Part shown: positions 8,430-35,766 of the stretch, piece by piece | Layout of the letters: each line of letters opens with the position of its first letter | How positions within the stretch are numbered: the first letter of the stretch is position 1 | From: Candidatus Latescibacterota bacterium | GTDB lineage: Bacteria; Latescibacterota; UBA2968 | Assembly (NCBI GenBank): GCA_022823725.1 | Contig: JAJEHL010000011.1 | Location: 199,107 to 263,106, forward strand | Length of the DNA stretch: 64,000 nt | Direction of reading: 5' to 3' | Translations under genes and position numbers: made by a program | The notes under the pieces: generated by a model | The model's database searches: none | What the model was told of the DNA's origin: nothing | The model's input: only the letters and a program-made list of their open reading frames with translations

Positions 8430-8677
8430 GAACTGGATTCCAGAATCATCGGTTCAACACGCTCGTGCCCAATCACCTTTCGAGCATACAAGAGGCAGGC
8501 TTGAATATCTTCCTCTGTCAGCCAGGGATAGCCTTTAAGCAACACCTCGGGGGTATCTCCTGCTGCGAGCATGCCAAGGACATGTTCAACGGCAAGCCGA
8601 CGTCCCCGAACAATAGGCTTACCCCCGAAGATCTTCGGGTTGATCGTAATTCGTTCCAGGAGTTTTTTTTCATCCAT
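8426..8677 (-). CDS. DUF433 antitoxin-type DNA-binding protein
   Basis: An 83-aa DUF433 protein (NPKIFGGKPIVRGRRLAVEHVLGMLAAGDTPEVLL..YPWLTEEDIQACLLYA), a winged-helix-like family that pairs with DUF5615/PIN toxins. It is the first gene of the pair. The first 68 residues are almost identical to the orphan copy at 15939-16181, pointing to a recent duplication. Confidence 0.88.
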   Translation of the reverse strand: MDEKKLLERITINPKIFGGKPIVRGRRLAVEHVLGMLAAGDTPEVLLKGYPWLTEEDIQACLLYARKVIGHERVEPMILESSS

Positions 8678-8708
8678 TGTTTATTTTACCTAAGTCGTCA
8701 AGAAGTCG

Positions 8709-14267: not shown

Positions 14268-15203
14268 TCATTCAAGTACTTCGCTGGGCTGCCACGGACC
14301 GCAGTCTCGCCATACCTGATTGTATTCCCCGCCTTCTTCGGCCGCACTCAGTAAAGGTATAAGAAAGATACTCAAGGTTTCAGCCACTGTCGAAAGCTTC
14401 CGGGGAGCGTCAGACAGACCACTTCGGTTCAGAAACGCTTCCCATTGCGTCTCTTTTACGGGATCTTCAGCGAATTGCGCCCGCAATGCGACAGGTCGAT
14501 CCGTCGGTAGATTTGTCTCTCGTCGTGCGAACGTCGCCCGAATGGCCTCTATGAGCACCGATCCTTGAAATGAAAATGTTCTGGCCATCAGCCAAAGATC
14601 GTAGAAGTCCTTCATCCGACTGTTTCGCATGCCCAGATAGACCAGAGCCTGGAGTTTCTCTGCCACAACTGTTTCGGGTGGATATGCAAGCACCTGGGGT
14701 TCCGGAAAATCCAGCAGGCCTGGAAAGGCCAGACGCTTCGCCTCTGGTGTGATGATATCTCCGAATCCAATATCTACTGTAATCGGAAACACTGCCGTAT
14801 CAAGCCGAGCCATCAGACGTACCCGCTGGCTTTCGTACATCTGATCCTCACGAATCGCCTGAACCGTGATACCTTTCGGATCGAATACTATCCCATCCGG
14901 TTCAACAGATATTGTAGAGACTTGCCGAAAAATCCGTGCAATATGTTCTGCTGATGCATCCCCATAACCCAGCAAGTCCAAATCCCGAGTGGTTCGATGC
15001 GGCTTACCCGTTAAGGCAACGAAAAGCATTGCGCCTTTGAGCACAAACCGATCTGCATATTCAGACTGCGAAAGCCGGTAGAGCAACCGCTCTATGGCAT
15101 AGGTGATAAGCAGAAGCTGGTAATCCTCTCCAGTTTTATCTCTAAAATTTCGCAAGCGCTGGCGTACCGAGACCGGCAGGTACTTTCTCTTTCGGGGACT
15201 CAC
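14268..15203 (-). CDS. abiEii: AbiEii-type nucleotidyltransferase toxin
   Basis: Toxin of a type IV toxin-antitoxin pair; family members transfer nucleotides to tRNA and block growth on phage infection. The nucleotidyltransferase signature is visible: FVLKGAMLFVALTG, then TRDLDLLGYGD with catalytic aspartates, and PPETVVAEKLQALVYLG with KDFYDLWLMA further on. 311 aa, full length. GTG start at 15203 overlapping the AbiEi stop by GTGA. A second intact copy is at 42498-43448. Confidence 0.92.
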   Translation of the reverse strand: MSPRKRKYLPVSVRQRLRNFRDKTGEDYQLLLITYAIERLLYRLSQSEYADRFVLKGAMLFVALTGKPHRTTRDLDLLGYGDASAEHIARIFRQVSTISVEPDGIVFDPKGITVQAIREDQMYESQRVRLMARLDTAVFPITVDIGFGDIITPEAKRLAFPGLLDFPEPQVLAYPPETVVAEKLQALVYLGMRNSRMKDFYDLWLMARTFSFQGSVLIEAIRATFARRETNLPTDRPVALRAQFAEDPVKETQWEAFLNRSGLSDAPRKLSTVAETLSIFLIPLLSAAEEGGEYNQVWRDCGPWQPSEVLE

Positions 15204-15802
15204 ACCATTGCCTCCATATAGGGGCGCATCACATTGGTCATCCGACAGATTTGTGCGAAGTGCCAGAGGTCATCCATCGTGGCTTTCCGTTCTCGAATGC
15301 AATCTCGCAGGCTCTCAATAGCCACATCCAGGCCGATTTTGTTTCGGTATTTGAAGCAGTCTGCCACGGTCTTGGCCGGAGTGTAGATCCGCACCTGGAT
15401 ATGTTCAATGGTGTGTGTTTCGATGCCCTCATCAAAGGCAGACCCTGAAAAACGGGCAAACCGAACCTGTAGCCCATCTACTTTGGGCTGACGTGCCCTG
15501 TTTGGAATCGCCATCCACACTTGAAACGGGAGTTGCGTGGTCAGTTCGTGGAACTGTAGCGCAGAAAGCAGACAGATGACGCCCTGGGGTACCCTTTTAC
15601 ATGCTTCCGCCAGACTGTGATGCGCCGTCCACTCGGCATCGGGGAGAGTGTAAAGCCCCCGTCCCACCTGGCGCAGCATGCCCCGATTTCTGAGCCTGCT
15701 GAGGTATTCACGTGGAATCCCATACTGGTCCAGATCCCGCGGCCTCAGCATACCCGCCTGTTTTACGAGCGCGAGAACACTGGGTTTCTGTGATTTGTCC
15801 AT
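15200..15802 (-). CDS. abiEi: AbiEi-type antitoxin / autorepressor
   Basis: Antitoxin of the AbiE pair. It has an N-terminal winged-helix region (GMLRPRDLDQYGIPREYLSRLRNRG, QVGRGLY) and a C-terminal domain typical of the family (GVICLLSALQFHELT, TPAKTVADCFKYRNKIGLD, WHFAQICRMTNVMRPY). 200 aa, ATG preceded by AGGAAGG. Family members repress their own promoter by binding inverted repeats; a suitable palindrome overlaps the predicted -10 (see 15829-15862). Confidence 0.92.
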   Translation of the reverse strand: MDKSQKPSVLALVKQAGMLRPRDLDQYGIPREYLSRLRNRGMLRQVGRGLYTLPDAEWTAHHSLAEACKRVPQGVICLLSALQFHELTTQLPFQVWMAIPNRARQPKVDGLQVRFARFSGSAFDEGIETHTIEHIQVRIYTPAKTVADCFKYRNKIGLDVAIESLRDCIRERKATMDDLWHFAQICRMTNVMRPYMEAMV

Positions 15803-15949: not shown

Positions 15950-16181
15950 AATCGAATTCAACACGCTCGTGCCCAATCACCTTTCGGGCATACAGTAGGC
16001 AGGCTTGAATATCTTCATGTGTCAGCCAGGGATAGCCTTTAAGCAGCACCGCGGGGGTATCCCCTGCCGCGAGCATTCCAAGGACATGTTCAACGGCAAG
16101 CCGACGTCCTCGAACGATAGGCTTACCCCCAAAGATCTTCGGATTGATTGTAATTCGTTCCAAGAGTTTTTTCTCATCCAT
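15939..16181 (-). CDS. Orphan DUF433 antitoxin-type protein
   Basis: An 80-aa near-copy of the DUF433 protein at 8426-8677, differing at two of the first 72 residues. Its C-terminus changes to EFDSTC because the frame runs into the deletion scar of the toxin gene. It therefore lacks a DUF5615 partner here. It could still bind DNA or neutralise the toxin made from the 8-kb locus. It lies directly downstream of the eight-gene array. Confidence 0.85.
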   Translation of the reverse strand: MDEKKLLERITINPKIFGGKPIVRGRRLAVEHVLGMLAAGDTPAVLLKGYPWLTHEDIQACLLYARKVIGHERVEFDSTC

Positions 16182-16245
16182 TGTTCATTGGGCAACTGGT
16201 TAATGACATGTTTTTCAATCAGACTCAGAAATTCTTTCAACGAAC

Positions 16246-18108
16246 TCAACGGAGTATATCGACAGTGCAACGACCTTTTGCTTCAATGTCTTTAATGAAT
16301 TCTTGATCAGAAGCAATCTTGCGTGTGGGATCATAAACGAGAAACAAAATGTGTGAATCCGCAGGATATTTCGTAAGATCAGCCGCGATTCCATCTGTTG
16401 CTTTGCTGGGAGTTGTACCGTCTCGAATATATTTTGATTCTATAAGTAGATTAGTGCCAATTCCATGGTCAGGAATTACTCGAGCCCCTGCAAAGGAAAC
16501 TTCAGGATGTTCACTCCTTAAATCCTGCCTGTGTGTTTTAAGCAATGCCTGAACTTTTGTGTTTAGATCATTTTCATTTTTAGGCTTATTCTGACGAAAC
16601 ATAGCAGGGATAGCATCTGAGACCTTCTCTCGTATAGATGCAACCAACCGTTCGATTGGCTCCTTCAAATATTCCCGTTCAGAGATCAACTTGAGTAACG
16701 AATCTTCCTCTATCGGTAGGTGTAAATCGTCATGGATATTTCTCATATGCTTCATTGCATCAAATACCTGCTTTCCATGTCTATTGCATAAATGCCAAAC
16801 TTTCTCAACAATTTCGACATCATCGTTGCAGTCAGGTATCCAGTCTATCAACTCCTGAAGCTCATTCATCATCTTTTCGCAAAAATAATCAACATTCCAG
16901 TTAGCGAAATTTCGCCCCTGGCGCACATAGTCAACCACTGTAGTTTTTGTCTCCCTACTGACCATAGTTTCCGATATAAAATTAGCAGCATATATCCCTG
17001 AATTATCAAAGTCTTCGGATCCAGACGCATGTGCTGCTATCCGACGATCAACACACTGGAAACATTGCCCGCAATGGGTGGCCTGCTCCATATTTTGAAA
17101 GGTTTTATTGCACGATACAGCGCTGGAAATCAGTTTGGGATGTCCACTGGCATTGATGGACTCAAATACTTCCGTCTTGGTTTTCCAGAGAAAAGGGACT
17201 TCAATACTGATAGGTTTATCCACAAACAGTGAAAAGAATTTTTGAAGTAAACCTATCGTTTGAGGATGCGTTGTTCTGCTTGCCCTTGCATTAGCAAGAT
17301 CTTCCCGCCGAGCAAAATTAATGCTGGTGACGCCGTTTTCGTACACATAGAACCGACTCTGTTTATATGCGTATGCCAATGCAAAAGCGACACTCGTGTA
17401 GAGAAATGATCTGCTCCGTTGAGTTTCCTCTATAGCATGAATACCTTTCAAACTGCACTTGAAGCAATAGTGGTGTACTCGATCAGGGAAGTGTGACTTG
17501 AGAGCCTTGGCAAGACGTTCCTGAGTTCTGATGATACTCGGCTGAAATGACTGATGGCTGACCAAACACACTTGTTCATCAGTGTTTTTTACCAGCCGTT
17601 CCAGTGCTCCGGCTAATGAATCAAGCCCCCCTGAGAAAAGTATGACAGAAATATCCTTTTCGCCAGCAACACTGAACACTTCCCTGTCAAAAAGACTGGT
17701 GGGTGGAGTTGAATGACCGGGTTGAAAATCGAACCGATACTCTCGATCACCAGTTAAAAATTTCAACGCATCCGACAAAGTCTGCTTAACCTCAGGTTTA
17801 TTCCAAAAAGGCTCATCACGAACCCGAATAACAAACTCAAGCGTCCGTGACCAACTGTGATATTCTACTGCATCTCGAGAACCTCGAGGAGTCATTCGGT
17901 CGGCGCAGTAAACATATGATGCTATCTCAAGAAGGTCTAATAGTCGATCGGGTAAATGATACACCCCTCTGACAAAATCAGGAAGCCGAAGATTGATCTT
18001 CCTGGTGGATTCCTCCAGATAGTTAAACTGCTTTACGGATTTCGCAGGCTTACTGCCATCCAATTCAGCATTATTGCACAGAACAATGTGGGGAGAGTCT
18101 TGTGTCAT
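16246..18108 (-). CDS. QueC-like PP-loop protein fused to a PD-(D/E)XK nuclease-like domain
   Basis: 620 aa. The central region is a QueC/QatC-type ATP pyrophosphatase: PP-loop ILFSGGLDSLAGALE near residue 160, and a zinc site (C, then CGQCFQC followed by VDRR) near residues 330-350. The last ~100 residues look like a restriction-endonuclease fold of DpnII/MboI type: ARVIPDHG, then LIESKYIRDG (D...E-x-K) near 545-560, and ILFLVYDPTRKI. QueC makes preQ0 in queuosine synthesis, but QueC-like proteins also occur in Qat and type IV CBASS defence. The fusion and the lack of queuosine genes favour defence. Last gene of the array; overlaps the preceding gene by ATGA. Nuclease assignment is by motif only. 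Confidence 0.82.
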   Translation of the reverse strand: MTQDSPHIVLCNNAELDGSKPAKSVKQFNYLEESTRKINLRLPDFVRGVYHLPDRLLDLLEIASYVYCADRMTPRGSRDAVEYHSWSRTLEFVIRVRDEPFWNKPEVKQTLSDALKFLTGDREYRFDFQPGHSTPPTSLFDREVFSVAGEKDISVILFSGGLDSLAGALERLVKNTDEQVCLVSHQSFQPSIIRTQERLAKALKSHFPDRVHHYCFKCSLKGIHAIEETQRSRSFLYTSVAFALAYAYKQSRFYVYENGVTSINFARREDLANARASRTTHPQTIGLLQKFFSLFVDKPISIEVPFLWKTKTEVFESINASGHPKLISSAVSCNKTFQNMEQATHCGQCFQCVDRRIAAHASGSEDFDNSGIYAANFISETMVSRETKTTVVDYVRQGRNFANWNVDYFCEKMMNELQELIDWIPDCNDDVEIVEKVWHLCNRHGKQVFDAMKHMRNIHDDLHLPIEEDSLLKLISEREYLKEPIERLVASIREKVSDAIPAMFRQNKPKNENDLNTKVQALLKTHRQDLRSEHPEVSFAGARVIPDHGIGTNLLIESKYIRDGTTPSKATDGIAADLTKYPADSHILFLVYDPTRKIASDQEFIKDIEAKGRCTVDILR

Positions 18109-18872
18109 ATCTGAACACTCTCCCGCATCAATTCCTCACGGATTTTGCCAAACGCTACCGCTAAAAATCGCTCTATTTCCTCATTTGATGGCATTTCCTC
18201 ACGAGCGTGATTGTTGTACCACCCGGCAGCAAACGACTGCGCAATTCTGGCAGTTTCAAACGCATGATCAGAAATATCGTCGATATGCTGTTCCAAAAGA
18301 TCGAAGAAATCATCGCGTTCCTGCAGGCCTGGCAAAACTGCCGAAGCTTCTCGCTCGAGAAAGTAGTTGAGATATCTCTCTGTAAAATTGGCAAAGAACA
18401 GCCGTGCCACTTCACAAAACCCTCCGCCATCACCCGCTTTTCGCCACACTTCAGCAGCATCGCTGTATTCAGGAAGGATGGTCTGTTGTTGCTGTTGTTG
18501 CCGGGTCCATTTGCCGACAGCATCTGTGGCAGCTTTCTGTGCGATATCTGCATATTCAAAAGAATTCGTGTGAGCTTTGACCCATTTAGACAGACTTAAA
18601 GAGATTCGAAGAGGCGAGGGATTTGAGGAAAGATCTACATAGGGACTTTCAGATTGAACTGAGACAGAAGAACGCGAAAGCGCTATAAGGAAACCAAATG
18701 CGGCTATTACACCATCATCTCTATGAATCTGAAGGAACTGCCTCCGAACGTTAGAGATAGTTGCTTTAGCAACGTCCGAAACTTTGCCTTCTTCTGGAAA
18801 TTCAGCTATTTGATCAACAACACTCCGCCATTGCTGCGTACGGGGAAGTGTTCCTGATCTTTCATGTCCCAT
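18105..18872 (-). CDS. Helical partner of the QueC-like protein, Met-Gly start, possibly QatB-like
   Basis: 255 aa, no firm family by eye. Predicted mostly helical, with an odd run of glutamines (about residues 125-130) and a C-terminal helix FGKIREELM. The N-terminus is Met-Gly followed by a short flexible stretch with Ser, Pro and Trp, resembling my recollection of QatB proteins, in which the exposed glycine is the site of modification by the QueC-like enzyme. The 4-base overlap with the QueC-like gene supports a direct partnership. This functional link is inference. The Shine-Dalgarno AGGAAG is part of a hairpin ending at the start codon. Confidence 0.65.
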   Translation of the reverse strand: MGHERSGTLPRTQQWRSVVDQIAEFPEEGKVSDVAKATISNVRRQFLQIHRDDGVIAAFGFLIALSRSSVSVQSESPYVDLSSNPSPLRISLSLSKWVKAHTNSFEYADIAQKAATDAVGKWTRQQQQQQTILPEYSDAAEVWRKAGDGGGFCEVARLFFANFTERYLNYFLEREASAVLPGLQERDDFFDLLEQHIDDISDHAFETARIAQSFAAGWYNNHAREEMPSNEEIERFLAVAFGKIREELMRESVQI

Positions 18873-18929: not shown

Positions 18930-21900
18930 CTAAGAGAAATATTGCTGGAAAACTTGGTCTGCATCTTGACTTAATTGAGTTGACTCTTCTGTTGTAACCA
19001 ATCGTCCCCTGAAGTTTCTATCATACCAGGCCTCTTTGGTGTCCCAATGGTTTCGATATTCCTCTTGATCCAGACGTCCCAGATGTTCCCAGTACCACTC
19101 TTCTCCTTGCCAGAAAATGGTAAAATCAGGTAAATAGAACGTTCCATCAGAGGCAAATAGTGGTTTCTCATATTTGAAAGGAATGTCTCTCTCAAATAGC
19201 ATATTGGCGATAATAACTTCAGATTTAGAACGTACCATATAGTCCGTCAATGTTTTATGGATTTTCCCCTCTTCATACCATTGGTACATTGATAGAATTT
19301 CTTCTGGAACAGGCCGGAAAGTAAGCAAAGAAGAGTTGATGCCCAGAAGATGTGATTTTTCCATCCGCAACATACTTAAAAGCGGGCTAATATCTTCCTG
19401 AACCAGTACTGTGCAATGCCGACTGGCACGGGTTATGCCGGTATAGAATAGTTCCGTAGATAACAACGCCTGTCTGTGTTTTGGCAAAATAAAATAAACG
19501 CGATCAAATTCACTACCTTGAGATTTGTGAACCGAAATAGCATAGGCCAGTTCAAGATTTTCTTCCGGCTTTTCTGAAGGTAGCCAGTATCCATTGGGAG
19601 ATTTACCAAGCTTACTGCCATATCCCACCCAGTATTCTTCTTTACGCGAGAATATCACCTGAAAATGTTCCAGGCGAAAATCATCATCGCGTTGCCAATT
19701 TTTGTCGAATCCATGCGGCTTGGTGAAACCAAGCTCACCATTATACACTTCAATCTGCTCCAACTTATAGGTTGCTTTATTGAATGCCCAGATAGAATTT
19801 GATTTAGGCCGATTACGAAACTGAATCACCTTATCAAAGAGTGTAATTTGAGCAAGGTGTCCGACACGGTTCAGCATCCTTGCATTTGCTGCTTCCTGTA
19901 AAACTATATTCAGGTAATCGGTACCAAATTGATCACCTCGATAGGGGGAAATAACCTGCTGATATTCTGGTCGTCCTTCAAAAGCTGCTCTCCAGAGTTC
20001 AAACGGACGTTCTTCATTATGTTCTGAACCAGAGTCTTCTTCCATATCTGAGATAACCTGCTCTTTCAGTCTTTCTTCCAAATCTTCCGGATCGCTCCAG
20101 TAGACAATTCTTAAGTCCTGATCTATGTCACCACCTTCCTGTACAGCTCTTAAAATCTGCTCTTTTCTTGTATTGAAGGTCTGGTCTTTTTCTTTCTCCT
20201 GCAGAGCACGTGTATACAAAGATGCAAGATCGAGAATGCCTGTTCCTCTATCATTGAGACGATTCTCCATTTGTCGGATATTCGTTTTGAGAAACCCAAC
20301 ACACTCAGGCTGGTGTTCTTGCAGCCAATCGAATACATCTGCGAAAATCTTTCCTCGACCTATGGGGGGTAGTTGATTCAAGTCACCTACGAGAACCAGC
20401 CGCTGCACAACATTCCAGTTGATTGAGCGGAAAAGGGCAGCCATCAATCCCAGATCCAGCATAGAAGCTTCATCAATGATATAAGTGGAAGCACTATCTT
20501 CCCGAGTACCCCCGATGCGTTTATAAGTCATATTATCATTAAGCCATCCATGCCGGGCGAGAAAAGAATGAATTGTCGAAGCCGTTTTTCCTGTCGTCTC
20601 TCGTATGCGTTCCGTAGCTTTACCCGTCGGTGCCAATAATTGGAAGGCAGTGCCTATCCCGTGTGCCTTTTCAATCGCCTGTATTAAAGCCTTTATGACC
20701 GTTGTTTTTCCAGTCCCGGCAGATCCTGTCAGGATACAGATGGGTCTGGAAAAAATTTTCTGACATACATCGACCTGTCCCTGAATTACTTCATCATACT
20801 CGTTTGGATTTCCCTGACTCAAAGAACTATCCGAGTCGTACAAATAGGTGTGCCAGTGCTGCTCCGTAACAGGTGATCGCAAAGGAATATTAGGCCGTTG
20901 AGCCAGTAACCGAAGTTGCCTCTCGACCTCCCGTTCGTCGTCAAAGACGGATTTGAGGTATAGATACTTTTTTTTGTCCACTTCTCGCAGGATCAACGCC
21001 TGCGAGAGTTCATCTTTATCGACTTCCAAGTATCTTTCAGTATATTGATGCCTTTTCCACTCTGGCTGTAAACTTAACTTGTGGTTGATATCGTGAATGA
21101 TCTGAGTAGCGGTCATAAACGTGTGTTTTTCTTCTCGCCGCAACCGCTCAACACAAAGCCCTCTCAGTCGCCTCCAATCATCTTCATCAAAAAGAAAAGT
21201 GCCGCCCAAGTCTGGTGAAGGAAATACGCCGTGATCAATCTTGTTAAATGTGATGATATCGTCAGGATCATCACCTGTGAATTCTTCACTGAGAATGTAC
21301 GGATCGTCTGAAATTTCAGAGAGTGATGAATAGATCCCGTTCTGAGCGCGGTCTTCAGATAGAACTTTCTCAATTTGATCTTTATGAAGGTCAAATCGAG
21401 GTAAAAGATCTCGGAGCAAACCCCGCTTATCATCTTCTTTGAGCAACCAGCGACGGACTATTTTTCTTTTTATATCAGGATCAATATTGAGGCCATCAAT
21501 ATAATTACGATTACCATCCAGAAGACTGAAGATAGCATCCCTTGCCACCTGCTCTTTGCCTGAATTGACCTGAGATTTAAAAAACGGAATAGCATCCGTA
21601 AAACCGAGATAGTCGAGTACTTTCCCGAGCCCTGGATACAACCCCCGGTTCTGCCACAACTCTGCAACAAGCGATTGAAGCCAGTCGATTCGAAGCGACC
21701 AATCTTCACTGGTATCTCCAAGATCTTTAAGTGTGAGCGCAAATTCTAGGAATCGTTCTACAAGATCCAGTGCGTCGTCATCGGATATATGCCGTGTGGC
21801 ATATTTGAAGTTTCTCGGGTTATCAGGATAAAACAAGAACTGCTGTAAAATATCCGGATCATTCATATACAGATGATATGGAAGCCTTAATCCCTGATTT

Positions 21901-22517
21901 GGATAATGCGAGGTGATATTTCTCTGCCAGACGAATCCTCCACCAAATCGCTTTTGAGTTTCCTCAGAGCAATTTTCATAGAACAGTTCTTCGCCTACCT
22001 TTTTTATTCGCGACAACCCCACCACCACATAGCTTCGTTTATCCTCTTCGCTGAAAGGATTGCTGTAGTTTGCATAGTAAAAAATTAGACTTTGGTCTTC
22101 ATCAATTTGATCAAAATATTCTCTTGCAGCGGCGAGACGTCTATCATAATTGTAACCTTGTCCATCTCGTACTTCCTCCGTGTACATTTCTTCATAGGGC
22201 CACACCCCAACCGTAGCCGGCAACATATCCCAATACTTCGCTCGCGTATCATCTAAAAAAAAGCTAGGGGGATCTGCGTAAACCCGCAACGAATCATCAC
22301 CAAAGGCATTTACGCTGTACCTGCAAGGGGGTGGTTGATCCAGGCTTGAGCAACTGGCCCCACAATTTATCTTCTCCCATTCAAGATCACGATTTTCAGA
22401 AATAAAATTACCTGGATAGGAAAATTGGCCAACACAGTATGTATTTGCTGAGGGATTCTTACATATTCGCCCATTCCAACCATCCATATGCCACGCAAGT
22501 CTCGCAGAGATATGCAT
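18930..22517 (-). CDS. RecD-like superfamily 1 helicase with C-terminal nuclease domain
   Basis: 1195 aa. The N-terminal ~600 residues are a long accessory region starting HISARLAWHMDGWNG, with several conserved-looking Cys (CKNP, YCVG, NCGASC, PPCRYS). The SF1B motor follows: Walker A TGSAGTGKTT near 597, IIDEASML near 684, GDLNQLPPIG near 715, VHKSQGSEF near 997 and YTGITRAS near 1025. The last ~100 residues form a PD-(D/E)XK-type nuclease often fused to such helicases: E in RSKSEVIIAN, D in LPDF, and W-EHLG. It likely unwinds and cuts DNA (or RNA). ATG with AAGGA upstream; 20 bases after the DUF1998 helicase gene. Confidence 0.88.
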   Translation of the reverse strand: MHISARLAWHMDGWNGRICKNPSANTYCVGQFSYPGNFISENRDLEWEKINCGASCSSLDQPPPCRYSVNAFGDDSLRVYADPPSFFLDDTRAKYWDMLPATVGVWPYEEMYTEEVRDGQGYNYDRRLAAAREYFDQIDEDQSLIFYYANYSNPFSEEDKRSYVVVGLSRIKKVGEELFYENCSEETQKRFGGGFVWQRNITSHYPNQGLRLPYHLYMNDPDILQQFLFYPDNPRNFKYATRHISDDDALDLVERFLEFALTLKDLGDTSEDWSLRIDWLQSLVAELWQNRGLYPGLGKVLDYLGFTDAIPFFKSQVNSGKEQVARDAIFSLLDGNRNYIDGLNIDPDIKRKIVRRWLLKEDDKRGLLRDLLPRFDLHKDQIEKVLSEDRAQNGIYSSLSEISDDPYILSEEFTGDDPDDIITFNKIDHGVFPSPDLGGTFLFDEDDWRRLRGLCVERLRREEKHTFMTATQIIHDINHKLSLQPEWKRHQYTERYLEVDKDELSQALILREVDKKKYLYLKSVFDDEREVERQLRLLAQRPNIPLRSPVTEQHWHTYLYDSDSSLSQGNPNEYDEVIQGQVDVCQKIFSRPICILTGSAGTGKTTVIKALIQAIEKAHGIGTAFQLLAPTGKATERIRETTGKTASTIHSFLARHGWLNDNMTYKRIGGTREDSASTYIIDEASMLDLGLMAALFRSINWNVVQRLVLVGDLNQLPPIGRGKIFADVFDWLQEHQPECVGFLKTNIRQMENRLNDRGTGILDLASLYTRALQEKEKDQTFNTRKEQILRAVQEGGDIDQDLRIVYWSDPEDLEERLKEQVISDMEEDSGSEHNEERPFELWRAAFEGRPEYQQVISPYRGDQFGTDYLNIVLQEAANARMLNRVGHLAQITLFDKVIQFRNRPKSNSIWAFNKATYKLEQIEVYNGELGFTKPHGFDKNWQRDDDFRLEHFQVIFSRKEEYWVGYGSKLGKSPNGYWLPSEKPEENLELAYAISVHKSQGSEFDRVYFILPKHRQALLSTELFYTGITRASRHCTVLVQEDISPLLSMLRMEKSHLLGINSSLLTFRPVPEEILSMYQWYEEGKIHKTLTDYMVRSKSEVIIANMLFERDIPFKYEKPLFASDGTFYLPDFTIFWQGEEWYWEHLGRLDQEEYRNHWDTKEAWYDRNFRGRLVTTEESTQLSQDADQVFQQYFS

Positions 22518-22537
22518 ATTTACATCCTTTGTGTGTA

Positions 22538-25500
22538 CTATTCTTGATGCAGAAAAGTTTCCTTCAATGCGATATCCGGTTGCCTGAATTCTAGAATTGG
22601 TCCACCACGAGCAAACCCGGTTCTTGGGTCTATGATATCCAGACCACGATCGAGATAGAATAGTCTTTCTCCTCCCTCAGATCCCTGCACATAGATAAAT
22701 CTGGCATGGGTGCGATCTCGATACCCACGAATATCAATAGTTGGATTATATTCTGGAAAAGGCGCGAATGCTTCCTCCAGTTTTTTTCTATGTTCTCCCG
22801 GGATAAACGCGTACCGATCCCGGCTCTGATCAGAAAGTTTGGTGATCAACTTAACCCTTATTGGACCTTTCGAAATCAGAGGCTGATATACTTCTAATAA
22901 ACTACTCAGACAGGCGACCTGATGAGCATTTCTGAGATACGGATCTTGAATAATGATTTCCTTAATATCGTTTTCCATATCAGCAGTAAAGATCTTGGAA
23001 AAATCCACCCGATCTCCCTCTTCAAATCCATGGGTTCTATAGCCTGTCTCTACCAGATCAAACACTGTCAATTCTTCAGCGCAATTTTTAAACCAGTCTT
23101 CAAGCATTTTCTGCGCCTCTTCAAGACGATTTGCGCTTCTATTTTGCCACAATGGCTGACGATGTGTCAGACTATCCAGCACGGTTATCTTTTCTTCACC
23201 GAAATGGAAAGCTGCACGGCGTCCTTCCGCCGTTACACCCAGCATTGCATAAGGAGGTAGTTCAACACCATCCTTCATTTTATATATACGAACTCCCGCT
23301 TGATGGAGCAGCAATAAAGAGGCCATCGCACCTTCGTCTTCAGAGAGATTCTTGACAGCAAGTTTGAGTCCATTTCCGATCCTGGAAGCACAACTTTGCA
23401 GAAGAATATGCCAGGGGCCTGTCTCTGCTGGTCCGGTTGAAGTCACTTCGTTGGTGATAAGATATACCCTTGCGCTCTGATCTATAAGAGCCCTGAGTGC
23501 GCTTGCCCTGTCAGAGTGAGTATAACGAACGTCTTCATCCCAATTGCTATCTGCTTCCAGAATCAACTGTCCCAAATATTCCGACACAGGGCCACGCTCC
23601 AGAATATCATGGGCATATTGATTTCGATAGTGCCGCAGACATTTGTAGCATGACGCATCTCTACCGCACGAGCAATTCTCTACTCTGCGGTATGCCGCAT
23701 CCAGCACTGCCAAGCACTCATCCTGCGACTCAAGACGTTTGACATGCCCTGCGCCTCCCGGTACGCTATCGAATAGTACTACTTCTTGCAAAATGTGATT
23801 ACCGTCCCTGACCGGTCGAATTATACCATCAATATCTGCGGATTCTATGTTCAGAACTTCCGACATGCCGCCTAATAGCGCATACATCAAGGAGAGCCAG
23901 AATCCGTGATCTGTGTAGGCATATCCGGTTCCATCAAAAAGCAACCTGGCCGCACTGCCTCTGAATTCATGGCCCAGGTGTTGCCACTGAGGCCGTCCTC
24001 TGCATTCTCCACCAAACGGACGCCTGTGAGATTCTCCCGGTTTGTAATCGTCCAATTTCATACCACAACTACGGCATATATTAAATCCTCGCCCACTGCC
24101 ATCTTCTCCATCATTAAAAACAAAAAAATCGGCCAAATCTGTAGTGCGCAGAGAAACACGCCTGCCGCCCTGTCCCATAGTAAATACAACGGGATCCTCG
24201 CTATCTTGCTGGGGGACAAATAGGACTCTGGAACTGGGAATGCGAACTGGCCGATCAAAGGCAATAGGATCGCCTCCCTTTTCCAGGTCTGTCGTAAAAC
24301 CGTAATCAGGAACCACATAGAAATGTTTCCGGCGAGCCGGACTTCGACCATTATGATCACACACCGGACACTTTCCGCCTTGAAAAATCGCCCCTCTTTG
24401 TAAGTGGCGCTCAACGTACCAGCAATTTGGGCAACGTGCATAAAACTGTGCCTGAAGAGCACCGTTGGGCGGCAATTTGATACCTACACTTTCCCAGAGC
24501 CGTTCGTTTGCAACGACCTTTGCTCCGGGAGCATATTCCGAAAGGGCTATACGAAGATCACGATCCAGATCCAGGCCTGAATCACTGGTTTCTAAATTCA
24601 CATTATAGATCGGAAATGCATACCGGGGTAACACCCCTCGATCACTGAAGAAGGTTACCCAATCCACCCTCTTGAGACTGTCCATGCGCTTACTCAAATA
24701 GGTGAGAAAGCCTGCGATTTTTTTTGCATCTCCAAACTTTTTTGCATCTATTGTCTTGTGATGTCTTCTATTGGCTTCCCTGTACGCATCTTCAAACATT
24801 TTCAGTTCATTCACATAGTGGTCGCGAGCATCGCTGACATATTGTATTGCATATTGGGCAACCTGGCCGAGATAGGCTTCTGTGAAAGTATCGGGAATCA
24901 AAGACCGTATCGTTAATTTATGTGTCTCAACCAGTTCCTCTAAATTCTCAAAGAAAACTTCCACTGGAGCGGATTGATTTTTATCAGGTTCCTCCAGAAA
25001 ATCCCCTATTGACCGGATATTAGGATAGTTGGCTCGGATAAATTCAGAAAGTAAAACAGCCTGTATATGTCTGCGAACAATGACATCATTATCCAGATGT
25101 ATTCTGGGAGGAGGAACGACGCCTGCCACCATCTCTTCTGGAATAGCAAAGAAGTATTCATCGTGAGATCTTGGTAAAGAAAAGGTGACGACAAAAGCAG
25201 CTGTCCCAACTCCTCGACCAGCGCGGCCAGCACGTTGCTGATAATTGGTTGGACTTGGAGGCATATCCCGCAAAAATACCGCTTCCAGATCCCCGAGATC
25301 AACGCCCAGTTCAAATGTTGTTGAACAGCTCAAGACGTTAATCTGTCCTTCATCTCTGGAGTGGCCATTTTGAAAGGCTTCCTGATAGAGGGTTGCCACA
25401 GCAGGTGTAAGTTGAGCAGTGTGTTCCTTAGCAACTAATGGCGCAGGTTGTTCTCGACTGTAAATATGACGATAGTGGTTATTAGACATTACATGCTCAG

Positions 25501-28327
25501 GGTCTGCTTCGATAAGCTCGCCTGGACATCTGAAGCTCGGACACACGCCTCCTACATTCCAGGGCGTCCACTGATTGCAGGTTGGACAGTAATACCATTT
25601 TTCAGGACACCCCAAGCGCAAAGCTTCCCAACGAAATTGATGTCCGGACTTGCCCGGAGTGACCTCAACACGTGTAGTAGGTAAGACAGGAGCAGGACCA
25701 TCGACCTGTGTAAGAGAACGCCAGATGTCATAGAGGTATTGCAACACATCGTCGTCTGAGACTTCTGGCTTGCCGTTCCGTTTGGAGACTCTGTCCAAAA
25801 CTTTCTTGAGGAAAAAGCTGCGACGCTGTCTGGAAACGCCTGCTACAGGTACAAAACCCTGTAATCGCCACCGCGCTCCATTTTCCGATTCTCGCGCAAC
25901 AGCGGCATCTAGTCCCAGTTTGGGTGCAAAAGCCTCATCTCGAGGAGATAATGGCGGAGGCATAGTAACAATCTTCTGCATCCGTAGCGACGAAAGCAAT
26001 ACTTGCATCAGATCACGCTGTTCATGTTCCTCAACGCCCAGCACTGAAAAAGACTTTGGAAAATCATAAAAATCAGAAAGTTCAATGGACATACTGGTCA
26101 ATGCCAGGGCCTCGAGGGATTGCCGGCGGCTGAATGGCAGACAGAATTCAGCGATGAGCGCCCGCTGGGCTTCTAGGCGGATGTCATGATCCTCCATATC
26201 CCAGGGGAAAAATCGCTGAGTCTGATTCAGGTGTATGATATAGTCAATAACAGCATTTGCCGAAACAGATCCCGTCTTTCCCCCGGCCTGAAGGAGAGCA
26301 TTATATATCAGCCAGCGAAGCATCTGTACACGATGGGTATGCCCCAGATACGGAGCAAAATAGGCAGCCTGCTGTCGTGAATCTGAAAAGCATAGAAGCT
26401 TTCTGCCCTTACCCGGATAAGAGAGCACCCGAGAATCCTTGGAGGCTGGCAAATGGCGATAGAAGGATTCAGCAACGGCTGCCTGGGCTGCATTCGAATC
26501 TGCCCTTAATCCGGTTACGGTATTTTGTCCTCCGCAGGCGAAACACTTGGTAATCTCAGGTCCTACTTTTAAAAACCAGAAGGGAATATGACTCGCTTCA
26601 TCATCGCAGCTGCATTCACAGGAATCACCAGATTCATAGACACCACATCGAGAACAATAAGTCGCCCGTGTTCCAATTTCTTCCCCTTCTTTAACTTCAT
26701 CTTCTTCATCTTCCGAAACCGGTTCCGGAGGATCCCATGTGAACCAGACCGGTGTACCACGCCCCTCAAGGGGAGATCCAAATGCTTTCAGTATCCGACG
26801 ATCTCCTTCCTGAAACTCATACGCAAATACATATGGCTGTCCGCATTTGCGGCAGACCTGAAGTTCAACGGTCTTATGAGTTTCATCAGGAGTGGTATTG
26901 GTAGGTTCTAAAAACAGACTCGGTTCGTGCTTCCCTTTTTCACCTTCATGATCAAAGGCTATATATCCCCCTGACAGGCCTCGAACGAAAAAGTGATAAC
27001 GACACGGTACCAATCTGGCGTCCATATTCGGATACTTGGCCAAGCTGGCGATTCGAACCAGACCGATCAGGGTTTGCACGGCCTCCTCGTCTCGACTCTC
27101 AAATACATGGTGTGCAGCCGCAGGAAGATCGGGCACATCCTCGACCGCTTTACGCAGGAGTTTTATACGACTATCGTGCCGGAAGACTTCACAAAGGGCT
27201 TCAGTAAAACTGACCTGTGCAGTTTTTTCAGCCAGTGTGACAATATCCGAAGAAAAACCCCCATCTATAAGTACGGCCGATAATTCATCGAACCATTTTT
27301 CGTCTTCGCAAGCTCTGACGAACGCAGGGTGTGTATAGATGCTCTTTTTGATTTGTAGATCCTGTCCCAGAGGCAGCACCGTTCGCTCTGATTCGATTAC
27401 ATCCTCAGCTTTAAAGGACGAATTGAAGAGCCTGCTTGCAAAGGATGCAACTTCCTCTCGTGTTTCAGTATCTGATGCCCCTATTGTTGCACTTGTTGAA
27501 ATATATTGGGGAGGTGGTTCTGTCGGCTTTTTAATTCTGGCAAGTAAGCGACGCATCAGAAGGGCAACTTCGCTTCCCTTGGCTCCTGTGTACGTATGTG
27601 TTTCATCCAGAGCGATAAAACGCCAGGGACCGTGGAAAAGAGGGCTGTCATCGGATCGCATCAGCAAGTATTCAAGCATTGAGTAATTTGTAATCAGGAT
27701 ATGAGGAGGGTTCTCTCTGAAAACCTGGCGTGAAACAACCTCATTCTCCAATGCGTCTGGATGCAGATCCCGAGCCCGTGTTTCAGACTCTGGCGTAATG
27801 TTGATATTGACATAACGCCCAAATCGTATGTCGGGATGGTCTTTAAGCAGATGACGTAGCACTTTGAGCTGATCCTGCACAAGCGCATTCATGGGATACA
27901 GAAGCATAGCATGAATACCCGGCTCTGGATTTTCCAGAATTTCGGATAGAATAGGCACAAGGAAGCACAATGTTTTTCCACTACCCGTACCGCTTGTTAC
28001 AACAGCGTTTCTACCTTCTCGAAGTTGCCTGATCGTTCTGGACTGATGGCTATACAGTTCCTGGGTGGGACGACCAAGAAAAGGAATCTCACAGATTCTA
28101 TCAGGCAAAATACCGTCATCAACTAAATCCTGGAGGGATTCTTCCCTTATATACGGGGGCAATCCCTGAAGATAGGGACCTCGAAATAGCCGTCCGGGCT
28201 CGCGTATGCGCTGTTTGAACTGCTCACCGAGGTCAGAATACTCTGGTGCGACACTAAATGTTGTCAAAAGATAGCGTTCAAAACGCTCTGAAATAGCGTT
28301 AGAAAGTTCAAGTGGATCAATGGGCAT
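22538..28327 (-). CDS. Giant DEAD/DEAH-type helicase with DUF1998 and a C-terminal MIT_C/PLD-like domain
   Basis: 1929 aa. Helicase core: Walker A SGTGSGKT near 113-119, DETH at 241-244, STSATIG, and motif VI QRAGRAGRG near 1030. Several Cys pairs between the motifs suggest zinc ribbons (CRKCG, CSRCG, CFACG, CPTC, CPNC...CPVC, CRSCG). DUF1998 is marked by DSVPGGAGH and CSCG...CYKCLRHYRNQ near 1550. The size and order resemble DruE of Druantia; DISARM uses separate helicase and DUF1998 (DrmB) proteins. The last ~150 residues (IIQDPYLRN..., HARFIYV, YLDRGLDI) resemble the MIT_C phospholipase-D-like fold, which is an inference. ATG preceded by GAGG; 6 bases after the 161-aa gene. Confidence 0.9.
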   Translation of the reverse strand: MPIDPLELSNAISERFERYLLTTFSVAPEYSDLGEQFKQRIREPGRLFRGPYLQGLPPYIREESLQDLVDDGILPDRICEIPFLGRPTQELYSHQSRTIRQLREGRNAVVTSGTGSGKTLCFLVPILSEILENPEPGIHAMLLYPMNALVQDQLKVLRHLLKDHPDIRFGRYVNINITPESETRARDLHPDALENEVVSRQVFRENPPHILITNYSMLEYLLMRSDDSPLFHGPWRFIALDETHTYTGAKGSEVALLMRRLLARIKKPTEPPPQYISTSATIGASDTETREEVASFASRLFNSSFKAEDVIESERTVLPLGQDLQIKKSIYTHPAFVRACEDEKWFDELSAVLIDGGFSSDIVTLAEKTAQVSFTEALCEVFRHDSRIKLLRKAVEDVPDLPAAAHHVFESRDEEAVQTLIGLVRIASLAKYPNMDARLVPCRYHFFVRGLSGGYIAFDHEGEKGKHEPSLFLEPTNTTPDETHKTVELQVCRKCGQPYVFAYEFQEGDRRILKAFGSPLEGRGTPVWFTWDPPEPVSEDEEDEVKEGEEIGTRATYCSRCGVYESGDSCECSCDDEASHIPFWFLKVGPEITKCFACGGQNTVTGLRADSNAAQAAVAESFYRHLPASKDSRVLSYPGKGRKLLCFSDSRQQAAYFAPYLGHTHRVQMLRWLIYNALLQAGGKTGSVSANAVIDYIIHLNQTQRFFPWDMEDHDIRLEAQRALIAEFCLPFSRRQSLEALALTSMSIELSDFYDFPKSFSVLGVEEHEQRDLMQVLLSSLRMQKIVTMPPPLSPRDEAFAPKLGLDAAVARESENGARWRLQGFVPVAGVSRQRRSFFLKKVLDRVSKRNGKPEVSDDDVLQYLYDIWRSLTQVDGPAPVLPTTRVEVTPGKSGHQFRWEALRLGCPEKWYYCPTCNQWTPWNVGGVCPSFRCPGELIEADPEHVMSNNHYRHIYSREQPAPLVAKEHTAQLTPAVATLYQEAFQNGHSRDEGQINVLSCSTTFELGVDLGDLEAVFLRDMPPSPTNYQQRAGRAGRGVGTAAFVVTFSLPRSHDEYFFAIPEEMVAGVVPPPRIHLDNDVIVRRHIQAVLLSEFIRANYPNIRSIGDFLEEPDKNQSAPVEVFFENLEELVETHKLTIRSLIPDTFTEAYLGQVAQYAIQYVSDARDHYVNELKMFEDAYREANRRHHKTIDAKKFGDAKKIAGFLTYLSKRMDSLKRVDWVTFFSDRGVLPRYAFPIYNVNLETSDSGLDLDRDLRIALSEYAPGAKVVANERLWESVGIKLPPNGALQAQFYARCPNCWYVERHLQRGAIFQGGKCPVCDHNGRSPARRKHFYVVPDYGFTTDLEKGGDPIAFDRPVRIPSSRVLFVPQQDSEDPVVFTMGQGGRRVSLRTTDLADFFVFNDGEDGSGRGFNICRSCGMKLDDYKPGESHRRPFGGECRGRPQWQHLGHEFRGSAARLLFDGTGYAYTDHGFWLSLMYALLGGMSEVLNIESADIDGIIRPVRDGNHILQEVVLFDSVPGGAGHVKRLESQDECLAVLDAAYRRVENCSCGRDASCYKCLRHYRNQYAHDILERGPVSEYLGQLILEADSNWDEDVRYTHSDRASALRALIDQSARVYLITNEVTSTGPAETGPWHILLQSCASRIGNGLKLAVKNLSEDEGAMASLLLLHQAGVRIYKMKDGVELPPYAMLGVTAEGRRAAFHFGEEKITVLDSLTHRQPLWQNRSANRLEEAQKMLEDWFKNCAEELTVFDLVETGYRTHGFEEGDRVDFSKIFTADMENDIKEIIIQDPYLRNAHQVACLSSLLEVYQPLISKGPIRVKLITKLSDQSRDRYAFIPGEHRKKLEEAFAPFPEYNPTIDIRGYRDRTHARFIYVQGSEGGERLFYLDRGLDIIDPRTGFARGGPILEFRQPDIALKETFLHQE

Positions 28328-28333
28328 AGGGAT

Positions 28334-28819
28334 CTACCTCTCTGAATACTCCGGGTAAAACGAGTTCAATCTTTCGTCGATATCTTTATCTGTGTAACTA
28401 TGCTGATGTAAGAATTCTCTGAGTTGACTGATGATCTTTCTACTTCCAGCAGGAGGCTGATTTATGTATTTGCAGGTTTCTAAGATCCACAGCCATTCAA
28501 AAGCCGTCTCTTCATTCATATTTTGATGTATCTGTTTCCAGTCCTTAACACATGTCCCACCAAGAGTTATAATCCAATGAGTCTTTCGATTTTCCTGAGA
28601 CCAACTGACCGTTTTATCACCCCAGAATAGCCTTGCATCCCATTCCTTCCATTGTCGTTCTGTGAGGGTATGGCGGGATGGATCAAAGCTGATATTCAGC
28701 ATTCTGCATCGTTCGTGAATAGACCGCAGATCCATTGCGGGCAGAACTTCAAACGCTTCCTGATAGGTGGTACTCGGTAGAAGGTTTGACTTAACTAATA
28801 AGTTGGATAACACAGGCAA
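28334..28819 (-). CDS. Small array protein, unknown function
   Basis: 161 aa from a TTG at 28819; a GTG at 28813 has better spacing from GGGGG and may be the real start. It has Trp- and Glu-rich helical segments (WKEWDARLFWG, ETAFEWLWILETCKYI) and no signal peptide or membrane segment. It lies tightly between the Hsp70-like gene and the DUF1998 helicase, so it is likely a subunit or adaptor of the same complex. I do not recognise a family. Confidence 0.72.
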   Translation of the reverse strand: MPVLSNLLVKSNLLPSTTYQEAFEVLPAMDLRSIHERCRMLNISFDPSRHTLTERQWKEWDARLFWGDKTVSWSQENRKTHWIITLGGTCVKDWKQIHQNMNEETAFEWLWILETCKYINQPPAGSRKIISQLREFLHQHSYTDKDIDERLNSFYPEYSER

Positions 28820-28829
28820 TCCCCCAATT

Positions 28830-30365
28830 TTATGAATTGAACAAACCCCTGGAATCTTCTGGAATATTGAATCCCAGATTTAGTTCATGTATGAACATCT
28901 CTGTTTCCTCTCGACTTGCTCGGGCAATCTGTCCACTACCGTGAATTCTCAAACCAAGATGTTGTGTAAGTGCAAAGTCCACTTCTATCCACGTTTCTTT
29001 TTTATCAATTGGAATAGGCACAATTCGTCGGAGAAGTCCCTGAGGCTGCATATCTTGCTCTAATCTGTCGCATATAAGCAACCGAGCAACACCAGTCTGC
29101 GTATTTGTAACGAAAAATCTCTCCTGTTTGGGGTTTTCAAAATCCAGCAACTCATTTTTCTTGAAAATGGGATAGAAAGCATCCTCAAAACCATTGGAAC
29201 CAGCCGTACGTATACCTATATCACTGGAGAAAATAGGTTCGGCGCCAAAAACCGACAGGAGAGCAGCTCCAATTGCAGTGGCATTACTCACATCAGTTTC
29301 TGGTGCCTGCCTATCATTGCGTGAATCAAAAGGAAGGTTTGTAATAATTACATCTGGCCCAAACTCTTGCTGCAAGCGCTCCTTTACGAGAGGGATGTTA
29401 CATGTTCCCCCGGACAGAAGAACAGGATTTATCAAGCTGTTTGCAACACCGGTATTTTTGATCGTCCGTAACAGACAGTTAATGCCACGCTCAATATATG
29501 GATCAACCCACTCTTCGAAGTCCTCACGCCTTACTTCGAATTCTATATCATAATCTGGCAAGAACCCGATTCGACTGAGGAGTGCTCTTGAACGGTTGGG
29601 TGCGTTTAACCTCCGCTTTGCTGCTTCCGCAAGAAGAAGAATCTCCGATCCCTTTCGAGGATGTTCCAGTATATCCTCAGGTGATAGGGGGATATCTGGA
29701 TAATCTTTCTTGAACTGAATCAATCCTTGCATAGCAATAATGCGGTCGAAATCATCGCCACCGACTTTTTGGCCGTCCTGAACCTGGATCTGTGCACGGC
29801 CATCATCAATCTTGACAGTAGCGACATCCAATGTCCCGCCTCCCCAGTCAAAAACAGCAGCCGTATCAGCATGCTGATTACACAGGGCATGGCAGTATAG
29901 AGCCGCGACTGGCTCCTGAAAAATATCGACAATTTCAATGCCTGCATTTTCACAGGCTTTACATAGGTTCTCTCTTGACCGATAAGGAAACTTAACGGGC
30001 ACAGTAATTGCCGCTTTCTTCAGTTCCCTTTCCTGGAGTTCGGCCTGATTAACAACATCTTTGATATAGCGAAAAAAGGCTGTAACGATATCGATAGGAT
30101 AAATATCGTATCCATTACCCAGATCCAGAGGGGTCTCTCTATCCAGTTCCCATTTAATGCTTGCAACACGAATCACATCTTCTAGCGTCAATGCCTCATG
30201 TCCAAAGGCTACGGGTTCATCATTGATATATCCGACAACAGAAGGTATAGAATACTCCCGGCCTCTACCGTCAAAAACAGGTACCATGATAGGCTTCTCG
30301 CCATCGAAATAGGCGATTCGAGTGTTTGTGGTTCCGAAATCAATGCCAAAGGCCGTATCTGTCAT
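28830..30365 (-). CDS. Hsp70/DnaK-like ATPase lacking the C-terminal lid
   Basis: 511 aa. Actin-fold nucleotide-binding domain with FGIDFGTTNTRIAYF at the start, VFDWGGGTLDVATVKID near 170, and LLSGGTCNIPLVKERL near 320. The ~110 residues after the ATPase domain could be a beta-type substrate domain (WIEVDFALTQHLGLRI), but there is no helical lid or EEVD tail and no dnaJ or grpE nearby. It is therefore not the housekeeping DnaK. Overlaps the coiled-coil gene by ATGA, so probably made with it. A role as an ATP-driven switch or assembly factor for the helicases is inferred. Confidence 0.9.
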   Translation of the reverse strand: MTDTAFGIDFGTTNTRIAYFDGEKPIMVPVFDGRGREYSIPSVVGYINDEPVAFGHEALTLEDVIRVASIKWELDRETPLDLGNGYDIYPIDIVTAFFRYIKDVVNQAELQERELKKAAITVPVKFPYRSRENLCKACENAGIEIVDIFQEPVAALYCHALCNQHADTAAVFDWGGGTLDVATVKIDDGRAQIQVQDGQKVGGDDFDRIIAMQGLIQFKKDYPDIPLSPEDILEHPRKGSEILLLAEAAKRRLNAPNRSRALLSRIGFLPDYDIEFEVRREDFEEWVDPYIERGINCLLRTIKNTGVANSLINPVLLSGGTCNIPLVKERLQQEFGPDVIITNLPFDSRNDRQAPETDVSNATAIGAALLSVFGAEPIFSSDIGIRTAGSNGFEDAFYPIFKKNELLDFENPKQERFFVTNTQTGVARLLICDRLEQDMQPQGLLRRIVPIPIDKKETWIEVDFALTQHLGLRIHGSGQIARASREETEMFIHELNLGFNIPEDSRGLFNS

Positions 30366-31585: not shown

Positions 31586-31616
31586 CTTTTCCTCTCTCAT
31601 ACGGTTTAGCTCTACA

Positions 31617-34600: not shown

Positions 34601-34664
34601 GATTTGTTCCTGGTATAACGGTCTTCGTATAATAGTGGCCATCTTGAGCACGATATAGATTCAT
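31617..34664 (-). CDS. 1015-aa array protein with beta-rich middle and helical-repeat C-terminus
   Basis: First gene of the array. No nuclease, helicase or ATPase motif is visible and I do not recognise a family. Residues ~1-200 are mixed. Residues ~220-680 are rich in predicted beta strands with many Trp/Pro (LPAGEEISWKVATG, ILPPGTYYVLAAP), suggesting several Ig-like or jelly-roll domains. Residues ~700-1010 read as TPR-like helical repeats (ALEGQYVEANQKAEILE, ALRAVYDTYLRNF, ARLEGHIESAKELYMKII). Such a protein could be a recognition or scaffold subunit. It is 31 bases upstream of the coiled-coil gene. No strong promoter is evident in the AT-rich leader. Confidence 0.8.
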   Translation of the reverse strand: MNLYRAQDGHYYTKTVIPGTNQLATFQISPVAKNHLESLGIQIEEEIPRHVFSFLYSEGSIFTGGSGPSGEVAIDVPQRVLDSLIEWGIQGKPNDLRKAVRRAETSIANCITPGFIRWVCSFESNLELADLSGISFSDFDRYVHQSNNSKLNSLHLELIKNDGGSRVLWSLTRLIAHVALYPGFPDQIPGSWKGTVYEILANLIRDAFSTQPLPKPPQAPQSKILLPEVYWQVHEQQVVGILPAQTLPAGEEISWKVATGDAFQVPIRQLHDKTVVSEAITEPLEPASWKIDVEHRGNQRNTFPHSVEVQIPSSDGPYVIFEENGKAISWKPDLILPPGTYYVLAAPTVDIDEFYSTEGLEILEEIDYEPVAWWDWKGFCVSIISKVKLGSYLFDLSDIQIDWELVDPPELEVDISGMIPTWLNRWPQLIIKTSDETILQDSILEIERTEDGKFWNLYMCPDDDYRSDRITYIKENDKILIDFSQCEQFTSFSGSFAVRLLFSRLIEKTPKKLHFKVISGVQLDYVNDPNRPGQAKALSIRGAKSVTTYPGCGDIFRDGSYILYAEDPIKEPLIHFSMRPQDLDPEMLLAVRLRVSRISYLSPKTPLGNWVSLPLDMKLYEVEDLNARLKLELHSMPEVNDNELLGYLDGNEPVSAGKQISPYTFVIPLHRWLDNLGPAISGTIQVNCENTWLTIARLLGRTKSNVSSPKRSPSIYGSWFNEASKVECLALEGQYVEANQKAEILETRIRTEDLPLTVKHLLLARLGRVYIFIGSFDRAAEILPHQKKAGGLPAARYGGAMLEMRAHFPGDRFRALKQDIDAWEENSQKQLAMAEWSYRLGRMGKGGEGALRAVYDTYLRNFVSHLLADQAEAAIFTGISQFLLSKPCSFDSKLEFVPWLRTIQKAQRYLHTSLDRWDFSGDSSMGFSPWPTSICNEDVTYLKAIDCQANGNIQDARKHLKQLAKSRLNFPRMALLKARQARLEGHIESAKELYMKIIELDIVLEEMVALGKLDK

Positions 34665-35689: not shown

Positions 35690-35766
35690 GGGCGATTAGC
35701 TCAGGTGGTTAGAGTGCTTGCTTGACATGCAAGAGGTCACTGGTTCAAGTCCAGTATCGCCCACCA
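35690..35766 (+). tRNA. tRNA-Val(GAC)
   Basis: A complete cloverleaf: acceptor GGGCGAT/ATCGCCC, D-arm GCTC/GAGT, anticodon stem CTTGC/GCAAG with loop TTGACAT (anticodon GAC), T-arm ACTGG TTCAAGT CCAGT, and encoded ACCA. A perfect terminator hairpin follows. A decayed copy of its 3' half plus downstream DNA is at 43500-43575. Confidence 0.96.

Follow-up and report, generated by a model that had tools for sequence, protein, structure and literature searches.

A QatC-like QueC enzyme fused to a DpnII/MboI-type nuclease and its Met-Gly partner: an apparent compact relative of the Qat anti-phage system

Introduction

In type IV CBASS, the QueC-family enzyme Cap9 attaches 7-carboxy-7-deazaguanine to the N-terminal glycine of a CD-NTase (PMC11996544; PMC13279940). 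For the Qat system, the second of these studies (PMC13279940) states that QatB G2D and QatC active-site mutants abolish defence, that QatBC alone protects against some phages, and that a Thr/Thr pair in QatC stands where QueC and Cap9 have the deazaguanine-reading Tyr/Asp; QatC activity was not reconstituted in vitro in that work. A third study (PMC13329287) reports that qatA adjoins only 34 % of its QatC cluster, which leaves room for relatives of the kind described here. In the accessible text of the two recent QueC-family studies, covering QatC, Cap9 and the metabolic branches, we found no nuclease fusion or MGH-tailed partner, and further literature searches for fusions of QueC with a nuclease, or for phage proteins that combine QueC with a winged helix, returned none. 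Here we describe a gene pair that appears to be a small relative of this anti-phage system and that, to judge from these searches, has not been described before.

Results

The pair lies in a 64 000 nt stretch of contig JAJEHL010000011.1 from a Candidatus Latescibacterota bacterium, referred to throughout as the window, and both of its genes are on the minus strand. On the basis of Pfam, PADLOC and AlphaFold2, the gene at 16246..18108 encodes a 620 aa QatC-like QueC enzyme with a C-terminal DpnII/MboI-type nuclease domain. Directly upstream, an ORF at 18105..18872 specifies a 255 aa partner with a predicted QatB-like fold, characterized from the ORF itself, its orthologues and VIA-align, which opens with ATG GGA (Met-Gly) and begins MGHERSGTLPRTQQW (N-terminus MGHERSGTLP). 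This leading motif (18828..18872, minus strand) is predicted from pLDDT values to be a disordered tail and, given its conservation in the family, carries the presumed acceptor Gly2. By ORF coordinates the two genes share a 4 nt start/stop overlap, ATGA (18105..18108, minus strand). The positions, strand, overlap and Met-Gly start given in a preliminary description of this DNA, made from the sequence alone, were all recovered here.

Neighbouring genes in the window are of defence type, encoding RecD-like, DruE-like, Hsp70 and AbiE proteins. Pfam and PADLOC annotation of the neighbours identified neither a QatA-type nor a TatD-family (QatD) gene beside the pair. The RecD-like gene lies 57 nt away on the same strand, with no convincing promoter in the gap, and is part of a same-strand run (window 18930-34664, minus strand) that is possibly one uncharacterised defence operon; this run encodes a TPR-like protein of 1015 aa, a coiled-coil protein of 434 aa, an Hsp70-like protein, a 161 aa protein, a 1929 aa DruE-like helicase with a PLD-like end and the 1195 aa RecD-like protein (PADLOC PDC-S68, 1822 bits).

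Several further features of the window were recorded. Two AbiEi/AbiEii toxin-antitoxin-type pairs (14268-15802, minus strand, and 41896-43448, plus strand) flank a low-GC stretch (45.4 % versus 51-52 % around it), which is adjoined by a tRNA-Val gene (35690-35766, plus strand), an arrangement reminiscent of an island border; no repeat of the end of this tRNA gene turned up in a search across the window. A direct repeat of 233 nt, 92 % identical between its copies, occurs at 8453-8685 and 15957-16189, the second copy lying directly downstream of the QueC-nuclease gene, where it may be a gene remnant.

The QatC-like part of the 620 aa protein comprises residues 1 to about 455. It was recognized by Pfam QueC (32.6 bits, cut-off 22) and PADLOC QatC (E 9.3e-45), and scored 180 bits with the NCBIfam QatC model, which is under the 280 bit equivalog cut-off. 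Phmmer aligned the protein with the QatC crystal structures 9vlk (4e-22) and 9zee (5e-19), and its AlphaFold2 model (mean pLDDT 71, with modest values over the nuclease domain) best matched QatC 9y02_B (E 2.7e-19), followed by QueC and Cap9. Two structure predictions were made from alignments without one plasmid-collection row. The intact PP-loop and zinc cysteines reported in the preliminary description are present. The former, SGGLDS (residues 159-164, 17617..17634, minus strand), is the ATP-binding loop, with S, G, G, D and S found in 64/64 family members and with S159/D163/S164 aligning with S156/D160/S161 of P. aeruginosa QatC. The latter, C333...C346-x2-C349-x2-C352 (17053..17112, minus strand), has all four Cys in 64/64 and aligns with C334/C354/C357/C360 of the same protein. 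Along with the PP-loop residues and the four cysteines, E257-N258-G259, R231, R233, R278, T279, H281 and P282 never vary among the 64 proteins.

The substrate site sets this enzyme apart from canonical QueC. Alignment to QatC placed a QatC-type motif, SRTTHP, at residues 277-282 (17263..17280, minus strand), in which S277/T279 align with P. aeruginosa QatC T278/T280; position 277 is S or T, and position 279 T, in every one of the 64. This RTTHP-type site occupies the place of the canonical YPDC-type (YxD) substrate motif, which is absent from the 620 aa protein. As S277 and T279 replace Tyr/Asp, the site is of the QatC rather than the Cap9 kind, and a deazaguanine tag cannot be assumed. The earlier label 'QueC-like' therefore holds at the level of family, but the protein is not a canonical QueC: it is QatC-like, with extensions, and lacks the canonical substrate motif. 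The preliminary description had also suggested that in both type IV CBASS and Qat such enzymes link a deazaguanine to a partner's N-terminal glycine; this holds in part, as it is the case for Cap9 of CBASS (PMC11996544), while in Qat Tyr/Asp are replaced by Thr/Thr and the reaction was not reconstituted (PMC13279940). The host genome holds a separate, stand-alone canonical queC with YPDC, which points to a deazaguanine pathway.

At the C-terminus, residues 510-618 (16255..16581, minus strand) matched PF18742 (DpnII-MboI) at 40.5 bits (cut-off 27, E 2.5e-10), and four orthologues also exceeded the cut-off (36.4-46.9 bits); PADLOC Aga_Helical-REase gave a weak match to the 620 aa protein. The putative active-site residues P546-D547-H548...E557-x-K559 (16432..16473, minus strand; E557-S-K559 in the window protein) are invariant in 5/5 fusion proteins and correspond to the D...E-x-K segment noticed beforehand. 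In the AlphaFold2 model, E557 and K559 belong to a central strand spanning 554-560 and D547 to the loop ahead of it; the strand is followed by a helix (567-576), a strand (586-592), a helix (601-609) and a strand (615-619). This modelled order is as expected for a PD-(D/E)XK core, so that the suggested kinship of the C-terminal fold with these nucleases agrees with the prediction.

The partner was modelled as an all-helical protein (mean pLDDT 74.5, pTM 0.77) in which residues 1-13 are predicted to be disordered (pLDDT <50). With VIA-align 2 the model aligned with QatB 9y01_A at Z 11.0 (rmsd 4.0 A over 183 residues) and with 9y02_A at Z 10.7, the next unrelated row having Z 5.2; for helical bundles the program warns that a Z below about 13 may reflect a common arrangement. 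Foldseek on the same model gave no match at E<=0.001, and QatB surfaced only after VIA-align had re-aligned the Foldseek candidates. Comparison of sequence profiles between the partner family and QatB was not significant (hhalign probability 4.6), PADLOC QatB did not match the partner, and Pfam and NCBIfam scans returned no CD-NTase match. As no likeness to QatB is seen at the sequence level, homology between the two rests on the predicted fold. The model was built on a thin alignment of six sequences and the Z-scores are middling for helical bundles, so the evidence that the 255 aa protein is a QatB relative by predicted fold is good but not final; it gains strength from the gene order and from the QatC-like enzyme next door. 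Structure prediction of each protein, suggested at the outset as a check, paired a QatB-like partner (Z 11.0) with an enzyme matching QatC (E 2.7e-19).

Searches of 100 genomes, of genome contigs and of plasmids yielded four further complete pairs: in a genome of another phylum (G087; loci L002/L006), in MAGs of Fimbriimonadaceae (L007) and Chitinophagales (L008), and on a 90 kb plasmid of Leptospira noguchii, where the pair (L009) lies between transposases. In all four the partner gene immediately precedes the QueC-nuclease gene and slightly overlaps it, and identity to the window proteins is about 42-52 % for the partners and about 45-51 % for the enzymes. The partner N-terminus MGHERxGxLP and W15 are invariant in 5/5 lineages. 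With the pair adjacent in four other lineages and the motif residues invariant in all five, the association of the two genes is not a matter of chance. None of the window's upstream operon genes was found beside the other loci with an MGHER-type partner, and since their surroundings differ in this way, the two genes are the unit. The pair is scattered over at least five unrelated bacterial lineages and is rare: no further members were found in 386 genomes around G087 or in 395 genomes of the Chitinophagales MAG's class. Annotated plasmids and phages contained one pair, that of the Leptospira plasmid, and otherwise QatC-type proteins, which belonged to true Qat loci in the cases inspected; partial matches came from two Listeria phage records without annotation. 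Among the other loci collected, L003, from a genome of the same genus as the window (G007), is of Qat type, encoding QatC together with an MGTS partner and a TatD-like protein, and in L004:1318-2700 (G038) a 189 aa protein without a Met-Gly start comes before a distant QueC-like protein whose altered PP-loop reads SEGLDS.

When the two closest proteins were used as queries, a scan of viral contigs gave no loci; with a wider alignment, the IMG/VR contigs yielded 73. Six of these (L095-L100) have an MGTS partner and a TatD gene after qatC and are true Qat; no MGH locus has a TatD gene there. Most of the loci L030-L092 make up a separate and undescribed clade. Its roughly 57 QueC proteins, from uncultivated phage-like elements, are about 600-740 aa long, have various C-terminal domains and are 30-41 % identical to the window protein, to which they are nearer than to QatC. 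Ahead of each complete QueC gene of this clade lies the gene for a partner of about 260 aa that begins MGHxRLGxLPxTRxW, and as a rule the two genes overlap by 4-14 nt. A maximum-likelihood tree of 75 rows separates the whole group from QatC (support 99/98), and the window's own clade (100/99) consists of the five nuclease fusions and L014. The latter (L014:8001-10447), from a viral contig, has an MGHER partner and a QueC protein in which a short C-terminus of unknown kind replaces the nuclease. By our reading of the ORFs, members of L030-L092 (e.g. L069:3096-5925) sit in phage-like elements with recombinase and replication-type genes nearby. L087, where the partner is intact and the QueC gene truncated, was treated as decay.

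Past a shared linker, the C-termini of the family fall into types with no similarity between them: the nuclease (5), a type matching Trans_reg_C (6), two large types (31 and 16) and singletons, of which one falls in with the type of 16 when profiles are compared. Representatives of the types of 31 and 16 had no Pfam match, and the largest type resembles Trans_reg_C weakly (hhalign probability 14). A Trans_reg_C winged helix was detected in 7/41 scanned C-termini and the nuclease in 0/41, and with so few Trans_reg_C matches the idea that all the other modules are winged helices was dropped. Such dissimilar types across one family indicate that the output domain has been exchanged more than once.

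To survey the presumed acceptor, partners were located with a profile omitting residues 1 and 2, so that each was placed independently of its start. Gly2 is present in 58/59 complete partners (51 clusters at 80 % identity), following an ATG, GTG or TTG codon in those 58, and His3 is likewise found in 58/59; the background frequency of glycine as second residue is 13.6 % among long ORFs of the same loci, partners included. The one exception, L013:7602-8707 (IMGVR_UViG_3300028883_000054), was the sole true member returned by a DNA-pattern search for the MGHER tail, and begins ATG AGG (Met-Arg) followed by HERLGILP on a contig with phage-type replication and methylase genes. This partner overlaps a 110 aa in-frame QueC remnant, which joins a short N-terminus, QueC-like by eye, to residues about 364-450; the PP-loop, RTTHP, the zinc site and the nuclease are all missing from it. 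The sole natural loss of Gly2 thus coincides with loss of the QueC catalytic core, a natural experiment linking Gly2 to QueC catalysis. By its sequence the L013 copy may represent either decay or an active decoy, between which one sequence cannot tell.

Discussion

Taken together, we judge it slightly better than even (a probability of roughly 0.55) that the pair is a two-gene QatBC-type anti-phage system with a built-in nuclease effector. In the sequence of events that we propose, the initiator Met would be removed from the QatB-like partner, exposing Gly2. By analogy with Qat and Cap9, the partner would dock on the C-terminal helical extension of the QueC domain and its flexible tail would set Gly2 in the ATP-bound active site, where 7-carboxy-7-deazaguanine or a related acid could be joined to the N-terminal amine of Gly2. 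The tag, or an infection-triggered change in the tagged complex, would then control the fused DpnII/MboI-type nuclease and lead to DNA cutting. On the same analogy the QueC domain probably modifies Gly2 of the partner; that the tag activates the nuclease, that a trigger sets this off and that the pair acts against phages is what we infer, and the coupling of tagging to DNA cutting within one fused protein, as put forward in the preliminary description, is plausible. A role in defence is supported by the scattered distribution, by the plasmid copy between transposases and by the defence-type neighbours in the window; for the phage-element cassettes with winged-helix domains such a role is not obvious.

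Rather unlikely, in our estimation, is that the QueC domain binds ATP and the partner's N-terminus yet attaches nothing, acting as an ATP-gated sensor or clamp in which the tail holds the nuclease off until infection releases it. The findings on QatC speak for such an arrangement, in that the enzyme could not be made to work in vitro and has other residues in place of those that recognize CDG (PMC13279940), and the window protein shares the replaced site; against this, the catalytic and zinc residues are all invariant over a very divergent family, and plain binding need not obviously demand an N-terminal Gly2 in 58/59 partners. It is unlikely that the cassette chiefly serves mobile elements as a module for regulation or maintenance, its DNA-binding output having been swapped for a nuclease in the window's lineage. 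The roughly 57 relatives with other C-terminal domains in IMG/VR contigs, the Trans_reg_C winged helices (7/41) and the nearby recombinase and replication-type genes would all suit a module of this kind, but the nuclease clade is separate (100/99), its members come from cellular chromosomes and one plasmid that have no element genes in common, and the window copy is set in a defence-rich stretch.

Two other explanations concern the surroundings and chemistry of the pair. It is improbable that the two genes form a subunit module of the large upstream operon (TPR, coiled coil, Hsp70, DruE-like and RecD-like PDC-S68), even with the shared strand, the 57 nt gap and no convincing promoter between them; those genes are missing from the other loci with an MGHER-type partner, and membership in an Hsp70-DruE-RecD operon was rejected for this reason. 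Systems that place deazaguanine in DNA (Dpd) exist, and the presence of a QueC-family domain and a DpnII/MboI-type nuclease in one protein could likewise suggest a restriction-modification-like arrangement, in which QueC makes deazaguanine for DNA and the nuclease cuts unmodified DNA. We regard this as very improbable: no TGT/DpdA-type DNA-inserting gene was recognized among the scanned neighbours of the window pair, the canonical YxD substrate residues are absent while the genome has its own canonical queC with YPDC, and a partner with a conserved N-terminal Gly would be left unexplained.

Returning to the QatBC-type reading, a broader version of it may be offered tentatively, as possible though more doubtful than not. 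The QatB/QueC core could be a general switch with exchangeable DNA-acting outputs, namely the nuclease in cellular genomes and winged-helix or other domains in phage-like elements, and phages could counter the nuclease form with an untaggable decoy such as L013, whose Arg2 partner is accompanied by a remnant keeping only the presumed partner-docking helices. What the survey does establish is that the core of Gly-tail and QueC reaches well past Qat and CBASS, with exchangeable C-terminal outputs. Moreover, a presumed effector attached to a presumed tagging enzyme provides a direct readout for QatC chemistry, in that DNA cutting could be followed against changes in Gly2 and the PP-loop.

Compared with known proteins, the likeness to canonical QueC lies in the PP-loop ATPase fold and the zinc site, while the window protein differs in its N- and C-terminal extensions, its fused nuclease and its lack of YPDC. 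DpnII/MboI-type REase domains (PF18742; PADLOC Aga_Helical-REase proteins) have PD...ExK in common with the window domain, and the Aga_Helical-REase proteins differ in that the domain attached in the window is a QatC-like enzyme. With type IV CBASS the pair shares a QueC-family enzyme acting on a partner's N-terminal Gly, which is shown for Cap9 and inferred here; CBASS differs in its CD-NTase and Cap10, not found with the window pair, and in that Cap9 keeps Tyr/Asp. Qat differs in possessing the KAP NTPase QatA and the TatD protein QatD, separate and partly dispensable proteins that are both absent beside the window pair; in its partner motif, MGTS in true Qat loci versus MGHER in the five nuclease-fusion pairs and MGH in the wider family; in its tail of 30-90 residues versus about 14 in the window partner; and in a QatC that forms a separate clade (99/98) without the nuclease fused to the window QueC protein. 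We class the pair, which lacks QatA, QatD and the MGTS motif and scores under the QatC cut-off, as a QatBC variant and not as Qat itself. What it shares with Qat (PDB 9y01/9y02, 9vlk, 9zee) is the gene order qatB-qatC in all five lineages, a QatC-like enzyme extended at both termini that has the T/S-R-T-T-H-P site and four zinc cysteines, and a predicted helical partner with a disordered Met-Gly tail bearing conserved Pro and Trp.
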